DNA of 64,000 bases from Candidatus Brocadia sinica JPN1 (GTDB lineage: Bacteria; Planctomycetota; Brocadiia; Brocadiales; Brocadiaceae). The notes below the pieces were generated by a model. It saw nothing but the letters and a program-made list of their open reading frames with translations. It had not been told where the DNA came from and did not search any database. The stretch spans positions 3,221,052-3,285,051 of the forward strand of contig NZ_BAFN01000001.1 in assembly GCF_000949635.1 (NCBI RefSeq). The letters run 5' to 3'. This document shows, piece after piece, positions 3,123-48,337 of this stretch (positions are counted from its first letter, which is position 1; every line of letters begins with the position of its first letter). Both the position numbers and the translations under genes were made by a program.

Positions 3123-4205
3123 ATGGATATAGCCCTTTTAAGAAAGGAAATCGATAGGTTGGATTCAAAGATTGTAGAATTACTGAATGAAAGGGCCAAA
3201 ATAGTATTGAAAATTGGTGAAATAAAAAAACAAAATGGTGCGCAAGTCTATGCACCGAATAGGGAGCAAGAAGTGTATTCGCGCATTATATCTCAAAATA
3301 AAGGTCCCCTGACGAACGATTGTTTAATGGCAATATATCGTGAGTTAATGGCCGGCTCATTAATATTAGAAAAGGCCATAAAGGTGTCATATCTTGGCCC
3401 GGAAGGAACCTTTAGTTATTTTGCCGCGAAGCAAAAATTTGGTTCGTCTGTTGAGTACGTTCCGGTGCGGGGTATTGATGATGTTTTTAGGGATGTAGCG
3501 GCCGGTAGAAGTGATTACGGAATAGTACCGGCTGAAAATTCCACGGAGGGTGGAATCAGAGAGACGTTAAATATGTTCGTGGAATTCGATGTCAAAGTGT
3601 GTGCCGAGATTATTTTGCCGATTCACCATGCTTTAATAGCAAGCTGTATGAAAGAGGAGATTAAAAAGGTATACTCGAAACCCCAGATTTTGTCTCAATG
3701 CAAAAATTGGTTGGCAAATAATCTTCCTCGTGTCGAGTTAATCGAAGTCAGCAGCAGCGCTGAGGCTGCTTGCATCGTTGCCGATGCTGCAAAAGCAGGG
3801 AAAGAAGGGCGATATTCTGCGGTAATTGCCAATGCGGAAATAGCGCAGCAGCACGGATTGAATATTCTTTGTAAAAACATTGAAGACAACCCAAATAATA
3901 TAACGAGGTTCTTTATTTTAAGCAAAGAATACGGCGCGCCAAGTGAGAAGGACAGAACGGCAGTTATGTGCTACATAAAAAATCGTGCCGGGGCGTTATT
4001 GGAAATGCTGGAACCTTTCAAGACCTTTAATATCAATCTCACAAATATTGAGGCATTACCTACCAGAAAAAAGGCGTGGGAATATTGTTTTTACCTGGAT
4101 TTCGAAGGGCATGTATCAAATGAAACAATAAAAAATGCCCTCAATGAAGTGTCTAAAAGATGTTCTGACATGAAGATTTTGGGATCATTTCCAAAGTGTG
4201 ATTGA
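3123..4205 (+). CDS. pheA: Bifunctional chorismate mutase / prephenate dehydratase (P-protein)
   Basis: A 360-residue enzyme making phenylpyruvate from chorismate for phenylalanine synthesis. An AroQ-type chorismate mutase domain occupies residues 1-80 (IDRLDSKIVELLNERAKI). The prephenate dehydratase domain runs about 95-275, with SYLGPEGTFS, ENSTEGG and the NNITRFF motif holding the catalytic Thr-Arg-Phe. A C-terminal ACT domain (about 280-355) has RAGALLEML. The usual ESRP allosteric motif reads IEALPT here, so classical Phe feedback could be weakened (inference). It heads the plus-strand run and is followed by tpiA after 21 bases. Confidence 0.96.
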   Translation: MDIALLRKEIDRLDSKIVELLNERAKIVLKIGEIKKQNGAQVYAPNREQEVYSRIISQNKGPLTNDCLMAIYRELMAGSLILEKAIKVSYLGPEGTFSYFAAKQKFGSSVEYVPVRGIDDVFRDVAAGRSDYGIVPAENSTEGGIRETLNMFVEFDVKVCAEIILPIHHALIASCMKEEIKKVYSKPQILSQCKNWLANNLPRVELIEVSSSAEAACIVADAAKAGKEGRYSAVIANAEIAQQHGLNILCKNIEDNPNNITRFFILSKEYGAPSEKDRTAVMCYIKNRAGALLEMLEPFKTFNINLTNIEALPTRKKAWEYCFYLDFEGHVSNETIKNALNEVSKRCSDMKILGSFPKCD

Positions 4206-42925: not shown

Positions 42926-44113
42926 TTATAAAACCTTCGGCAATATCTTTTTAATCCGTCGCGCAGCTTCTCTTGTATCTTTGATACTGGGTACGAGGGC
43001 AAACCGTACATAACCTTCGCCTGGGTTTAGTCCGGTTTCTGTCTTGTCGCTAATCCATGCCCCGGGAGTTGTTACAATGGCAATATCGGGAGAAAGGAGT
43101 TTCCGGGCAAAATCGACAGATGTCATGCCAGCCGGTACCTTTTGCCAGAGATAAATTGTTGCCTCCGGGGTGCAATCAGGAAGGTTGATATTCCTAAATG
43201 CGTCCACTAATAAATCCCTCTTGATCTTGTATTCAGCCCTCATCTTTTCGACATGAGTCTCATCGCTGAGGGCAGCAATTGCTCCATCTTGTATAAAGGT
43301 GGCCGTACCCGAATCAATGTTTGTTTTTACCTTTTTAAATATATCAATAATTTGCTTATCGCCCGCAACCCATCCGACCCGGTAGCACGTCATGGCGCTT
43401 CTCTTGGAGAAGGAATTGAAGACAATGACCCCTTCTTTTGTAATCTCCAGGATACTATGAGGTGGTTCGTTAAAGTAAATCTCACTATAAGCCTCGTCCG
43501 AGGCGATGATGATATTATATTTTTTTCCGAATTCTACGATTTCTTTCAGGTATGATAAGGGCGCTACGGCTCCCGTGGGACTGTTAGGATAGTTAATCCA
43601 CATAATTTTTGTCTTCTTGCGAACTTCATCCGGGATGGGTATTGGGTCCATCAGGAATTTATTTTCTGCCAAGAGGGGTACATAATACGGAATCCCCTCG
43701 GCGAATAACGTACCCCGCGTGTAGGGGGGGTATCCTGGTGAGGGGATGATGACATAATCACCGGGGTTGACGATTCCTTCCGGAAAATTGAATACTGCCT
43801 CTTTTGAGCCAATGGTGGACGAAATCTCCGTAGCCGGATCCAATTGTATGCCAAACCTTTGCTGAATCCACCGGGCGATTGACTGCCGGAATTCCGGAGC
43901 GCCAATGTAGCTCGGGTAGCCTGAAGACTTTCTGAGTGTTATTCCCTTTTGTGTTGCCTTACGCACAATATCAGGGGTTGGCACTGTAGGGTCACCAACA
44001 CCAAAATCAATCGGGGTAATCCCCAGTGTTTTTAATTTTTCGACTTCTTTATCTACTTCTGCAAAGGCATATGCGCCAATAGACTGTAATCTCTTTGATG
44101 CCGTGATCTCCAT
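42926..44113 (-). CDS. Class I/II aminotransferase (Asp / LL-diaminopimelate type)
   Basis: A 395-residue PLP enzyme. FGVGDPTVPTPDIV opens the domain, NYPNSPTGAVAP is the conserved Asn-Pro block, SDEAYSEIYF follows, and the PLP Lys is in NSFSKRSAMTCYRVGW. It resembles LL-diaminopimelate and aspartate/aromatic aminotransferases. Its place between DAHP synthase and trpS would suit an aromatic amino acid role, but the substrate cannot be fixed from sequence. Confidence 0.85.
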   Translation of the reverse strand: MEITASKRLQSIGAYAFAEVDKEVEKLKTLGITPIDFGVGDPTVPTPDIVRKATQKGITLRKSSGYPSYIGAPEFRQSIARWIQQRFGIQLDPATEISSTIGSKEAVFNFPEGIVNPGDYVIIPSPGYPPYTRGTLFAEGIPYYVPLLAENKFLMDPIPIPDEVRKKTKIMWINYPNSPTGAVAPLSYLKEIVEFGKKYNIIIASDEAYSEIYFNEPPHSILEITKEGVIVFNSFSKRSAMTCYRVGWVAGDKQIIDIFKKVKTNIDSGTATFIQDGAIAALSDETHVEKMRAEYKIKRDLLVDAFRNINLPDCTPEATIYLWQKVPAGMTSVDFARKLLSPDIAIVTTPGAWISDKTETGLNPGEGYVRFALVPSIKDTREAARRIKKILPKVL

Positions 44114-44155: not shown

Positions 44156-44656
44156 TCATTTTTTTGACGGGTCTGTAACAGCAGGTTTGACAGGGCTCCT
44201 TTTGGCGGTCATTTCTTTAATTTCTATTTCGAGTACATTTGTTTTATTCAGCATTGCATCAGTGAAAGGGGTTCTGGGGTTTTGCGGCGCATACTTTTCA
44301 GCTAGTTTCTGAAGGGCGTAGTTCTTTGTATTGAGGTTAGAAAGTATTTTTATACTGCCAAACACAATAACAGAGCGGTAAGCAACTGAAGATGCACAGC
44401 TTGGTTGTTTCACAATAACATTTTTGACTTCCTCCACCTCAAAGCATACCGTTGGATTTATTCTGATATTATCAAGTTTTCTTCCTTCATTTGCACAATG
44501 GAGAAATATTTTCGATGTCTCCTTGTCATACGTAAAATTCATAGGTGTGATGTAGGGAATCCCATTGGCACAGGTACCCAATCTTCCCACGGTAGAACTT
44601 GCAAGGAGGTCTTCGATTTCATTTTTATCTGATATCTCTTTGTCTTTTCGTCTCAC
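44156..44656 (-). CDS. Pyridoxamine 5'-phosphate oxidase-like flavin-binding protein (NimA-like)
   Basis: A 166-residue split-barrel protein: IEDLLASSTVGRLGTCANGI, PYITPMNFTYD, IFLHCANEGRKLDNIRINP and YRSVIVFGSIKIL match the NimA-type FMN/heme-binding group. It is not classical PdxH. The role is unknown. It starts four bases downstream of aroF. Confidence 0.83.
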   Translation of the reverse strand: MRRKDKEISDKNEIEDLLASSTVGRLGTCANGIPYITPMNFTYDKETSKIFLHCANEGRKLDNIRINPTVCFEVEEVKNVIVKQPSCASSVAYRSVIVFGSIKILSNLNTKNYALQKLAEKYAPQNPRTPFTDAMLNKTNVLEIEIKEMTAKRSPVKPAVTDPSKK

Positions 44657-44659
44657 GGG

Positions 44660-45676
44660 TTATATTTTTCTTCCAACCGCTTCTGCTACAGGTTTTAGTT
44701 CTTCCATGAGTTCTTCAAATGCCTCAAGGGTAATCGTTTGTGGTCCGTCCACAAAGGACTTCTCAGGATCCGGGTGGGTCTCAATTAACAAGCCGTCTGC
44801 ACCCACAGCCACAGAACCCTTGGACATTGGATTAACAAGGCTTCTCTTCCCTGTTCCATGGCTGGGGTCTACAATGATGGGCAGATGCGTCATTTCCTTG
44901 AGTTGTGGCACAATGCTCAGCGACAACGTAAACCGTGTATAAGTCTCAAAGGTTCGGATACCCCTTTCGCACAGAATGACATTGGGATTATTTTGTGCCA
45001 GGATATATTCTGCAGCCAGGAGAAATTCGTCAATAGTGGCAGACATTCCGCGTTTTAAAATTACGGGTTTACCCGATTCGCCCACTGCCCGCAGGAGTAA
45101 AAAATTCTGCATATTGCGGGTTCCGACTTGTAATATATCAGAATATTTGCTCACTAATTTTACGTGTTCTGGTGTAAGTACCTCAGTGACGATTGGCAGA
45201 CCCGATGCCTCACGGGCATGAGCCAGATGAACGAGACCCTCTTCCATAAGACCCTGAAAGGTATATGGGTTACTTCGGGGTTTGAATGCGCCACCCCTTA
45301 ATGCGGTTGCGCCCGCATCTCTGACCCGTTTAGCGATTTCAATTATCTGTTCTTTACTTTCAATAGCGCATGGCCCTGCAATAACGGCGATTTCTTCACC
45401 ACCAATTTTTTTCCCGTTGTTCAGATGGATGACCGTTCTGAAATCTTTTCCTTCTTTACTTGCCAGTTTATATGGCGCAAGAATTGGGACTGATTTTTCC
45501 ACCCCTGGCATCACATCCCAAAAATCAGCGGGTAATACCCGTTCATCCCCAATAACCGCAATTACGTTTCGGTTCGTTCCTTGTAATAGAACCCCCTTTA
45601 AGCCGGCCTTTTCTATGCTTCCAAGGACATGATCTATATCCTTTTTTGCCGATCCGGCCTTCATTACAATAATCAT
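44660..45676 (-). CDS. aroF: 3-deoxy-7-phosphoheptulonate (DAHP) synthase, type I-beta
   Basis: A 338-residue enzyme condensing phosphoenolpyruvate with erythrose 4-phosphate, the entry to aromatic synthesis. An N-terminal ferredoxin-like regulatory domain (residues 1-70) as in Thermotoga-type enzymes precedes the barrel. Motifs: AVIAGPCAIESKEQI, LRGGAFKPRSNPYTFQG, QVGTRNMQNFLLLRAVG, PVILKRGMSATIDEF, CERGIRTFE and VDPSHGTGKR. GGTGGAGG precedes the start. Its leader has an aromatic-rich peptide and a terminator, so it is probably regulated by attenuation. It is the first gene of the block ending in trpS and argS. Confidence 0.96.
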   Translation of the reverse strand: MIIVMKAGSAKKDIDHVLGSIEKAGLKGVLLQGTNRNVIAVIGDERVLPADFWDVMPGVEKSVPILAPYKLASKEGKDFRTVIHLNNGKKIGGEEIAVIAGPCAIESKEQIIEIAKRVRDAGATALRGGAFKPRSNPYTFQGLMEEGLVHLAHAREASGLPIVTEVLTPEHVKLVSKYSDILQVGTRNMQNFLLLRAVGESGKPVILKRGMSATIDEFLLAAEYILAQNNPNVILCERGIRTFETYTRFTLSLSIVPQLKEMTHLPIIVDPSHGTGKRSLVNPMSKGSVAVGADGLLIETHPDPEKSFVDGPQTITLEAFEELMEELKPVAEAVGRKI

Positions 45677-45706: not shown

Positions 45707-45739
45707 AAAAAAAAGCCCCAAAACCAGCGGTTTTAGGGC
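45707..45739 (-). terminator. Attenuator terminator upstream of aroF
   Basis: On the minus strand GCCCTAAAACC (45739-45729), loop GCT, GGTTTTGGGGC (45725-45715) and then eight T's. It is only about 30 bases before the aroF ATG, so it must act within the aroF leader. CCCTAA in its left arm can instead pair with TTAGGG at 45778-45773. Confidence 0.92.
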
Positions 45740-45774
45740 ATTATATCAACATCTTCATAATGTAATGTCGAACC

Positions 45775-45864
45775 CTAAGACCCCCCTTGTTTATAACAAT
45801 ACCTGAAGTAATAAATTACCCAATAAAACCTGCAATGTTTTGGATTATTACTGAAGATATTCAT
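45775..45864 (-). CDS. Aromatic-rich leader peptide of the aroF attenuator
   Basis: An ATG at 45864 opens a 29-codon frame containing FYWVIYYFRYCY: eight of twelve residues are Phe, Tyr or Trp. It ends with TAG at 45777-45775. That stop lies inside the TTAGGG segment able to form an antiterminator with the terminator's left arm. Tyr codons (five) dominate, with two Phe and one Trp, and a further Phe stands at position 4. No strong Shine-Dalgarno is visible. A candidate promoter lies about 40 bases upstream. Position and composition are those of a ribosome-stalling leader peptide. Confidence 0.85.
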   Translation of the reverse strand: MNIFSNNPKHCRFYWVIYYFRYCYKQGGS

Positions 45865-45901
45865 AATTGAATCTTATAAATAAGGAATTAATATAGCTCA
45901 A

Positions 45902-45929
45902 ATTTTACATAACACAGTTTTATTGTCAA
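45902..45929 (-). promoter_or_regulatory. Candidate promoter of the aroF operon
   Basis: On the minus strand TTGACA (45929-45924), a 16-base spacer and TAAAAT (45907-45902). Transcription would start near 45895, giving a leader of about 220 bases containing the leader peptide and terminator. Confidence 0.6.
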
Positions 45930-46060: not shown

Positions 46061-48337
46061 TTGAAAAGAAGACTTCGTATTTTTTGCTTATTGTTGCCCT
46101 TTTTTATTTCAATTTTTGTTTACCTGAACTGTTTGCAACACTCCTTTGTTTACGATGACGAATCTACGGTCATCAATAATTACTTCATACGGCATTGGGG
46201 TAACTTCCCGAATCTTTTTACCAGTAAATACTTCATCCTTTCAGCCGAATTAACGTATCGCCCTGTGGTGACTTTATCGTATTTTATTGATTATACCTTC
46301 TGGCATTTGAATCCACTGGGGTATCATCTTACCAATATTCTCCTTCATGCTGTGAATAGCACGCTTTTCTTTGTCTTTGTCTTTCGTGTATTGAAAAAAA
46401 GAACGACGGCTTTGATTGCCGCTCTCTTTTTTTCATCCTTTCCTCTTTTTTCTGAGGTGGTCAATGCCGTAGGCTTTCGGGAAGACCTCCTGGCGTTTCT
46501 GTTTCTGATCCTGGCATTCATTTTTTATTTGAAGGCAGTGTCTACCCATTTTCGAGGTAGACACAACGTCTTTTTATTTGTTTACAGAGAAGCTAATTCG
46601 CAAGGTATTTGTATCACCACCCCTTTGCCCCCTCCTTCTAAAGGAGGGGAAAGAGGGGAGATTATAAAATTCCAAAATGTACAGCGTGATACTGAACAAT
46701 TGCCGAAAGCAAGACAAACCGGATATGTCTTTTATTATCCTCTATCGCTGCTTTGTTATTTTTTGAGTCTCTTTTCCAAGGAAATGGCAATTACTTTGCC
46801 CGTATTAATTGTCTTATACGACTTGATTTTCCAGAGACTTTTATCAAAAAATGATGCTCTCACGGTATCCCCTTTAGGGAAAGGGAGAAACGGGGGGATT
46901 CGGTTTACATATCTCAAGGCAAAAATTATCCATTATTACGTGGGATATTTCCTCGTTACCATGTTTTACATCTTGACTCGTTTCTTCTTCCTCCATAATC
47001 CTCAGGAATTACATGTCCCATACCCCCGGGACAGTATTTTTATTAATTTTTTGACCATGACCCATGTGCTGGCTTATTACGTAAAACTCCTCTTCCTGCC
47101 GTTTAAACTGAATGCCGATTACGTAGTCCCTTTTTCTACATCATTTTTAAAAATCTCATTTTGGTTGTCCAGCTTGCTTTTTATTGCAATAGGGATATGT
47201 ACATTCCGGCTACGGTCTCAGCACAAGTATATTTTCTTTTTTATTCTCTGGTTATTTGTCACGCTCATCCCGGTAATGAATATTATCCCATTGGGAAATA
47301 TTATGGCAGAACGTTATTTATATCTACCGGGTGCGGGGTTTTGCATGATTGTTGCTAGTTTACTGTCAAAGAGGAGAAGTAACTATAGCGCTACAAACCT
47401 TAAAGAAATTGGTTCTCATCCTTTGCCAGACTTGCTAAGAGGAGGGAAATTGTTAAGTTCCCTTTATCCTTCTCCTCTCCCCGCAGGTGGGGGAGGAATA
47501 AGGCGGGGGGGATTTTCGCCTTTTTTTAACGGAACAGGTTCATTATTCGTCTTCATAGTATTTTTTATTTTAATGGGAAATGCCTACCTAACTTTTAAGA
47601 GAAACAATGACTGGAAGGACGGCCTGCAGTTATGGTCGAAGGCGGTCTTAACCTCACCAAATAGTTTCAGGGCACACATTAACTTAGGGAACGCTTATGA
47701 AAAAAGAGGATTTAATGCCTCTGCCCTGGAAGAATACAATAAGGCATTAATAATTGATCCAAATGATGCAGATGTTTACAATAACATTGGCATTTATTAT
47801 GACAAGATGAATCTGTTTGAAGGTGCGATTCAATACTACAAAAAATGTCTTAACATAGGCACCAAGCATGCAAAGGCATATAATAATCTTGGCGTTGTTC
47901 TGACAAAGCAGAAAAAGTTGGATGATGCCGTTCAGTCATTCAAGCAGGCAATATCCGTTAATCCTCTCTATCCCGATGCGCACAACAACCTGGGGATCGC
48001 TTATTACAGAAAAGGCCTTATGGACGAGGCCGAGCGTGAGTTCAAATTAACTATCAGTATAGAACCATACCATGCGGAGGCGCACAACGACCTCGGCATT
48101 CTGTACAACGACAAACACCTATATGACGATGCCATTCACGAATTTGAGACAGCTATACGGATAAGGCCTGACTATGCAAATGCCCACATGAATCTGGGGG
48201 CTGTTGTTTTAAAATACAGGAAGAACAGGGATACGGCCCTGTTTCACCTGAAAGAAAGCCTGAAACTAGACCCACAGCAGGAACAGGCTGATGGGATAAA
48301 GAAGCTCATACAGCAACTGGAAGATACTACCGAGTGA
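46061..48337 (+). CDS. Membrane TPR protein (TMTC/YfhO-like layout) with in-frame palindromic inserts
   Basis: A 758-residue protein. The N-terminal two thirds have about ten hydrophobic helices, with HSFVYDDESTVINN near the start as in the GT-C/TMTC-like group. The C-terminal third (from about residue 540) has six to seven TPR repeats (LGNAYEKRGFNASALEEYNK, LGIAYYRKGLMDEAEREFKL). Three hydrophilic stretches rich in Pro/Gly/Arg (TPLPPPSKGGERGE, SPLGKGRNGGIRF, PSPLPAGGGGIRRGG) are encoded by palindromic repeats and fall in loops. A glycosyltransferase or assembly role is possible; none is shown. Start TTG at 46061. Confidence 0.8.
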   Translation: MKRRLRIFCLLLPFFISIFVYLNCLQHSFVYDDESTVINNYFIRHWGNFPNLFTSKYFILSAELTYRPVVTLSYFIDYTFWHLNPLGYHLTNILLHAVNSTLFFVFVFRVLKKRTTALIAALFFSSFPLFSEVVNAVGFREDLLAFLFLILAFIFYLKAVSTHFRGRHNVFLFVYREANSQGICITTPLPPPSKGGERGEIIKFQNVQRDTEQLPKARQTGYVFYYPLSLLCYFLSLFSKEMAITLPVLIVLYDLIFQRLLSKNDALTVSPLGKGRNGGIRFTYLKAKIIHYYVGYFLVTMFYILTRFFFLHNPQELHVPYPRDSIFINFLTMTHVLAYYVKLLFLPFKLNADYVVPFSTSFLKISFWLSSLLFIAIGICTFRLRSQHKYIFFFILWLFVTLIPVMNIIPLGNIMAERYLYLPGAGFCMIVASLLSKRRSNYSATNLKEIGSHPLPDLLRGGKLLSSLYPSPLPAGGGGIRRGGFSPFFNGTGSLFVFIVFFILMGNAYLTFKRNNDWKDGLQLWSKAVLTSPNSFRAHINLGNAYEKRGFNASALEEYNKALIIDPNDADVYNNIGIYYDKMNLFEGAIQYYKKCLNIGTKHAKAYNNLGVVLTKQKKLDDAVQSFKQAISVNPLYPDAHNNLGIAYYRKGLMDEAEREFKLTISIEPYHAEAHNDLGILYNDKHLYDDAIHEFETAIRIRPDYANAHMNLGAVVLKYRKNRDTALFHLKESLKLDPQQEQADGIKKLIQQLEDTTE
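46629..46649. repeat. Palindromic repeat inside the TPR gene, copy 1
   Basis: CCCCTCCTT-cta-AAGGAGGGG, followed by aaagagggg. It is read in frame as PPPSKGGERGE, in a polar stretch after a predicted membrane helix. Confidence 0.75.
46870..46885. repeat. Palindromic repeat inside the TPR gene, copy 2
   Basis: CCCTTT-aggg-AAAGGG followed by agaaacgggggga, read in frame as SPLGKGRNGGI. Confidence 0.6.
47474..47496. repeat. Palindromic repeat inside the TPR gene, copy 3
   Basis: CCTCTCCCC-gcaggt-GGGGGAGG, an imperfect hairpin, with flanking ggcggggggg. Read in frame as SPLPAGGGGIRRGG. Confidence 0.65.

Follow-up and report, generated by a model that had tools for sequence, protein, structure and literature searches.

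In the trp, pheA and pheST attenuators of E. coli, a leader rich in codons for the product of the pathway precedes an antiterminator and a terminator that are mutually exclusive, and the position of the ribosome decides which of the two forms. Two described systems stand closer still to the element reported here, as they precede the same gene. The aroF gene of Corynebacterium glutamicum carries the leader aroR, which contains Phe-Tyr-Phe and is relieved at Phe limitation (Neshat et al. 2014, cited through PMC11802643; PMC4046766). A motif named uORFC-13-1, with a promoter, a short upstream ORF containing Phe codon(s) and an intrinsic terminator, has been predicted before the aroF of Acholeplasma by comparative genomics; it is confined to Acholeplasma and unassigned environmental sequences, and no aromatic cluster of the size reported below is described for it (PMC8632094). 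The T-box leaders found before aromatic genes of the Firmicutes act on a terminator in response to the charging of tRNA. No RNA elements of Phe or Tyr genes were reported in a 2005 survey of the Actinobacteria (PMC1262725), and a survey of 2010 knew leader peptides only from the Proteobacteria, the Actinobacteria and Firmicutes cases of its own (PMC2965389). As far as the literature is openly searchable, we found no report of a leader attenuator in the Planctomycetota.

Here we describe an element before the aroF of Candidatus Brocadia sinica, found in a window of 64,000 nucleotides (the whole stretch of DNA that was analysed), which is very probably a transcription attenuator of the classical ribosome-mediated type that controls the aroF operon and senses Tyr and Phe. 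The gene (44660..45676, minus strand) encodes a type I-beta DAHP synthase with an N-terminal ferredoxin-like regulatory domain, the first enzyme of the aromatic amino acid synthesis pathway, and matches PF00793, PF18152, TIGR01361 and NF006421 above their cut-offs. Relatives with solved structures include 1rzm and 3pg9, the Thermotoga enzyme, whose main inhibitor is Tyr, with a weaker effect of Phe. The second gene of the probable operon, for a PPOX-type flavin-binding protein (44156..44656, minus strand; PF12900), begins 4 bases after aroF. The third (42926..44113, minus strand; PF00155) encodes a class I/II aminotransferase, to which the LL-diaminopimelate aminotransferase models are nearest, with scores below their cut-offs. 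This gene order is conserved in the Brocadiaceae loci that were checked; the PPOX-type gene follows aroF in each of them except L139, where the stretch ends before it.

The leader ORF runs on the minus strand from an ATG at 45864 to a TAG at 45775 (45775..45864). Direct reading gives 29 codons and the peptide MNIFSNNPKHCRFYWVIYYFRYCYKQGGS, within which FYWVIYYFRYCY has aromatics at eight of its twelve residues; the whole leader holds five Tyr, three Phe and one Trp. The frame is thus as the earlier sequence-only reading had described it, and dinucleotide shuffles of the 196-base region produced a frame with at least 8 aromatics in 12 only once in 5000. A clear Shine-Dalgarno sequence was not found for the window's leader. 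Upstream lies a promoter-like TTGACA-N16-TAAAAT (45902..45929, minus strand), which agrees with the sigma-70-like consensus at 11 of 12 positions and whose hexamers and spacing are unchanged in most members of the genus. Downstream lies an intrinsic terminator (45707..45739, minus strand) with an 11-bp stem, a loop of 3 and a T8 tract, kept in 26 of 26 aligned species. Its hairpin, GCCCTAAAACC-gct-GGTTTTGGGGC, occupies 45739-45715, the T8 tract extends to 45707, and 30 bases separate this end from the ATG of aroF at 45676; promoter and terminator flank the leader as proposed earlier. As the upstream neighbour starts at 46061 on the plus strand, divergent from aroF, the terminator belongs to the 5' region of aroF and not to the end of another gene. 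The window holds 1400 frames that are 10-60 codons long; apart from the leader, a single one of them has 8 aromatics in 12, and it lies at 3180-3296 on the minus strand and has a TTG start.

The stop codon of the leader (45777-45775) falls inside TTAGGG (45778-45773), which is complementary to CCCTAA in the left arm of the terminator, a pairing that the sequence-only reading had also pointed out. Across 26 species, 94% of the alignment cells of TTAGGGT (45772..45778, minus strand), the 5' arm of the antiterminator, are paired with 45733-45739. The partner is GCCCTAA (45733..45739, minus strand), which folding and alignment identify both as the 3' arm of the antiterminator and as the start of the terminator left arm. 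The two structures therefore share an arm and are mutually exclusive, and the same layout in other letters is found in other lineages. The antiterminator is longer than the six pairs first noted, because an inner hairpin, TCGACATT-N10-GATGTTGA (45746..45771, minus strand), continues it in the antiterminator fold. In the E. coli attenuators named above the arrangement differs in several respects: the element of the window precedes a DAHP synthase and is predicted to sense mainly Tyr with Phe, its stop codon sits inside the antiterminator arm, and a clear pause hairpin was not found in it. Compared in layout with aroR, likewise a leader of aroF, it has a cluster of eight aromatics in twelve where the actinobacterial leader has three aromatic codons in a row.

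Folding with a ribosome footprint of 13 bases, counted from the A-site, leaves the antiterminator arm free as long as the A-site lies no further than Gln26. Since the aromatic codons end with Tyr24, this holds at every one of them; the arm is lost for A-sites from Gly27 to the stop. A ribosome at the stop codon thus masks the arm while one at the regulatory codons does not, which bears out the geometry suggested at the outset; the layout is the same in two relatives, L016 and L013. The predicted energies in the window are -14.3 kcal/mol for the antiterminator and -17.1 kcal/mol for the terminator, and many relatives have roughly equal values for both. At equilibrium the full-length window RNA favours the terminator despite a stalled ribosome: with the ribosome at the aromatic codons, the antiterminator probability is 0.01-0.4. 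The choice would therefore need co-transcriptional folding, like that of known attenuators. For L016, folding favours the antiterminator at equilibrium also. Before the right arm of the terminator exists, the antiterminator wins in folding of the window RNA even without a ribosome, and no strong anti-antiterminator was found at this stage. The minimum free energy fold of the window pairs UAAGAUUC with GGGUCUUA, a candidate 1:2 hairpin that could act in pausing or as an anti-antiterminator.

We infer that the leader is translated, that ribosomes stall on it and that aroF responds to starvation, in the following way. Transcription would start near 45895, and a ribosome translating the leader would follow the RNA polymerase. 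A shortage of charged tRNA-Tyr or tRNA-Phe would make the ribosome wait on the aromatic codons 13-24 and leave TTAGGG free. Together with the inner hairpin, TTAGGG would then pair with GCCCTAA before the right arm of the terminator exists, and aroF would be transcribed. When aromatic aminoacyl-tRNAs are plentiful, the ribosome would reach Gly-Gly-Ser-stop and cover TTAGGG; the terminator would form and transcription would stop at the T8 tract. Judged from the sequence evidence, the element is very probably a working switch for Tyr and Phe starvation.

The leader is conserved in most of the family Brocadiaceae, where AroF identity is 86-98% in most genomes. In the 320 bases upstream of aroF, a sense-strand frame with at least 6 aromatics in 12 is present at 22 of 28 Brocadiaceae loci, against 1 antisense frame and 2.2 in shuffles. 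These 22 leaders share a core, F-Y-Y-F-R-Y-Y, which retains an aromatic in 116 of 132 aromatic cells and has R or K as its fifth residue in 20 of them. The letters in the core that depart from the majority number 8 at first, 13 at second and 35 at third codon positions, and the exchanges include TTT/TTC, TAT/TAC and AGA/AGG/CGA; aromatic codons are therefore retained despite synonymous drift, as was expected of an attenuator. About five to seven codons follow the core, usually ending in Gly-Gly/Arg-Ser-stop. Nearly all Brocadiaceae retain TTAGGG at the stop and the CCCTAA of the terminator, and most retain the U-tract. Covariation between antiterminator and terminator, also expected beforehand, gave no signal above shuffles inside the family, where it is uninformative because CCCTAA pairs with two partners and the strands hardly vary; support of this kind comes only from the more distant lineages described below. 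In the other families of the Brocadiales a leader was found at 4 of 30 loci, and it would therefore have been lost or replaced at most of them.

The Brocadiaceae leaders also indicate what is probably sensed. Tyr codons number 3-8 and are at least as frequent as Phe codons (1-4), whereas there are 0-1 Trp codons and none in several genera, which makes Trp unlikely as a main signal. Codon conservation thus points to Tyr with Phe as the signal and upholds this part of the original proposal; Trp, which had been included, is not conserved and drops out. The same core could be read differently, as an arrest peptide: nascent FYYFRYY would stall the ribosome on free Tyr or Phe, and the peptide, not the codon supply, would be the sensor. 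TnaC arrests with Trp, and conservation of the whole core, with its basic fifth residue, would fit such a switch. However, the length of the leader varies from about 10 codons (L025, MYFYYNIRCS) to 31 (L022), Tyr in the core is replaced by Cys, His or Asp in some leaders, and elsewhere in the Planctomycetota the same layout goes with aromatic runs of quite another kind. Moreover, arrest by free Tyr would activate a biosynthetic gene at times of abundant Tyr, which is the wrong direction. We consider arrest by the peptide very improbable.

Equally improbable is that termination is constitutive, or that the 5' region yields a short regulatory RNA, with the leader serving as a general gauge of translation only. 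The strongly conserved terminator sequence would suit this, the product would be about 190 bases, and Rfam gives a sub-threshold match to the cyanobacterial NsiR1. It does not account for the specific retention of aromatic codons ahead of an aromatic-synthesis enzyme, nor for a leader end complementary to a terminator arm in many lineages. The NsiR1 match, on the minus strand over the terminator (45707-45757), scored 24.7, far under the 39-bit cut-off, and was taken as chance; it was the sole result from 4227 families searched up to E = 10. Unlike the T-box leaders of the Firmicutes, the element has a coding leader and no T-box match in Rfam, even though tRNA charging and a terminator are involved in both as proposed. 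An Rfam search of the elements of 20 relatives returned nothing relevant. A model of the element matches once in the whole 4.08-Mb genome, before aroF, and no second copy was found there.

Attenuation by an aromatic leader, the reading that we favour, gains from loci outside the Brocadiales. At 26 of 68 DAHP synthase loci from other Planctomycetota there is a leader with at least 6 aromatics in 12 (0 antisense, 0.6 in shuffles), and at 25 of the 68 a terminator stands behind it. The peptides are largely unrelated in sequence, yet the layout is alike, and the leaders occur also in G+C-rich loci. In many of these bacteria the bases that follow the final aromatic codon show complementarity to the left arm of the terminator in quite different letters, e.g. 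TGGGTCTCGGGG/CCCCGAGGCCCA in L038, CGCCGTGTCGGG/CCCGATGCGGCG in L216 and TAAAGGTTTCAGG/CCTGAAATCTTTG in L167 (leader end/terminator arm). Against shuffled leader ends, this complementarity reached P < 0.05 at 11 of the 25 loci; the combined P of 2.1e-15 over the 25 (0.087 for the reversed-arm control) overstates their independence, because some of the loci are related to each other. That an untranslated AT-rich stretch should by chance read as aromatic codons is scarcely credible, for while such a region favours Phe and Tyr codons and the window's leader is without a clear Shine-Dalgarno sequence, the rarity among shuffles, the 22 Brocadiaceae loci against one antisense frame, the synonymous drift and the G+C-rich loci all speak against it.

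Comparison with other phyla rests on a set of 72 loci. Two of these, from Poribacteria, have leader ends that match their terminator arms: CAATGATGGGCT/AGCCCATCATTG with 12 pairs in L041 and GTGATGGGCA/TGCCCATCAT with 10 pairs in L050. An aromatic leader and a terminator precede the DAHP synthase gene at four deltaproteobacterial loci (L057, L068, L070 and L079). For L068, L070 and L079 the automatic search for an antiterminator gave P values of 0.3-0.8, and what they display is leader and terminator only. The four leaders end in YP..G..(S)GM/T-like residues, and a GCCGTG terminator is common to them. On balance, these loci lead us to favour the view that control of type I-beta DAHP synthase by attenuation at aromatic leaders is old and widespread, reaching from the Planctomycetota into the Poribacteria and Desulfobacterota, groups without described leader attenuators, and that it has persisted while its letters have changed fully.

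The mechanism itself is known and not new, because the aroR leader and the Acholeplasma motif precede it at the same gene. Of the suggestion that this attenuator lies outside the classical lineages, the Planctomycetota examples remain; what is new is the spread through a phylum without described examples. Attenuation at the gene for the entry enzyme of the aromatic pathway, in anammox bacteria and other Planctomycetota, would imply that transcription is tightly coupled to translation in this phylum in spite of its unusual cell plan. It would also name a natural sensor of Tyr and Phe supply in organisms that do not readily lend themselves to manipulation. Furthermore, it offers a way to ask whether switches of this kind evolve anew again and again or pass down by inheritance with drifting letters.

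Some individual loci depart from the common pattern. In one Brocadiales family (f3), the genomes of L134-L137 contain a further DAHP synthase gene whose identity to AroF is only about 50% and at which an aromatic leader and terminator were not detected. The leader is broken in two of the 28 Brocadiaceae relatives, both with an intact terminator: L008 has lost the ATG, the frame and the stop, and L023 has a TAG inside the core. Each may be a natural knock-out or an assembly error. The leader of L006, whose upstream sequence is identical to that of L032, stops early, and those of L025-L028 are very short, at about 10-13 codons. Finally, L016 and L019 have a second small frame about 150-180 bases before aroF, with a good Shine-Dalgarno sequence, GGAGGGAATG; in L016 it reads MYLALVTIQ. 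It ends in ATGA and so overlaps the start of the aromatic leader, which is itself without a Shine-Dalgarno sequence, and coupled translation of the two leaders is possible at these loci.
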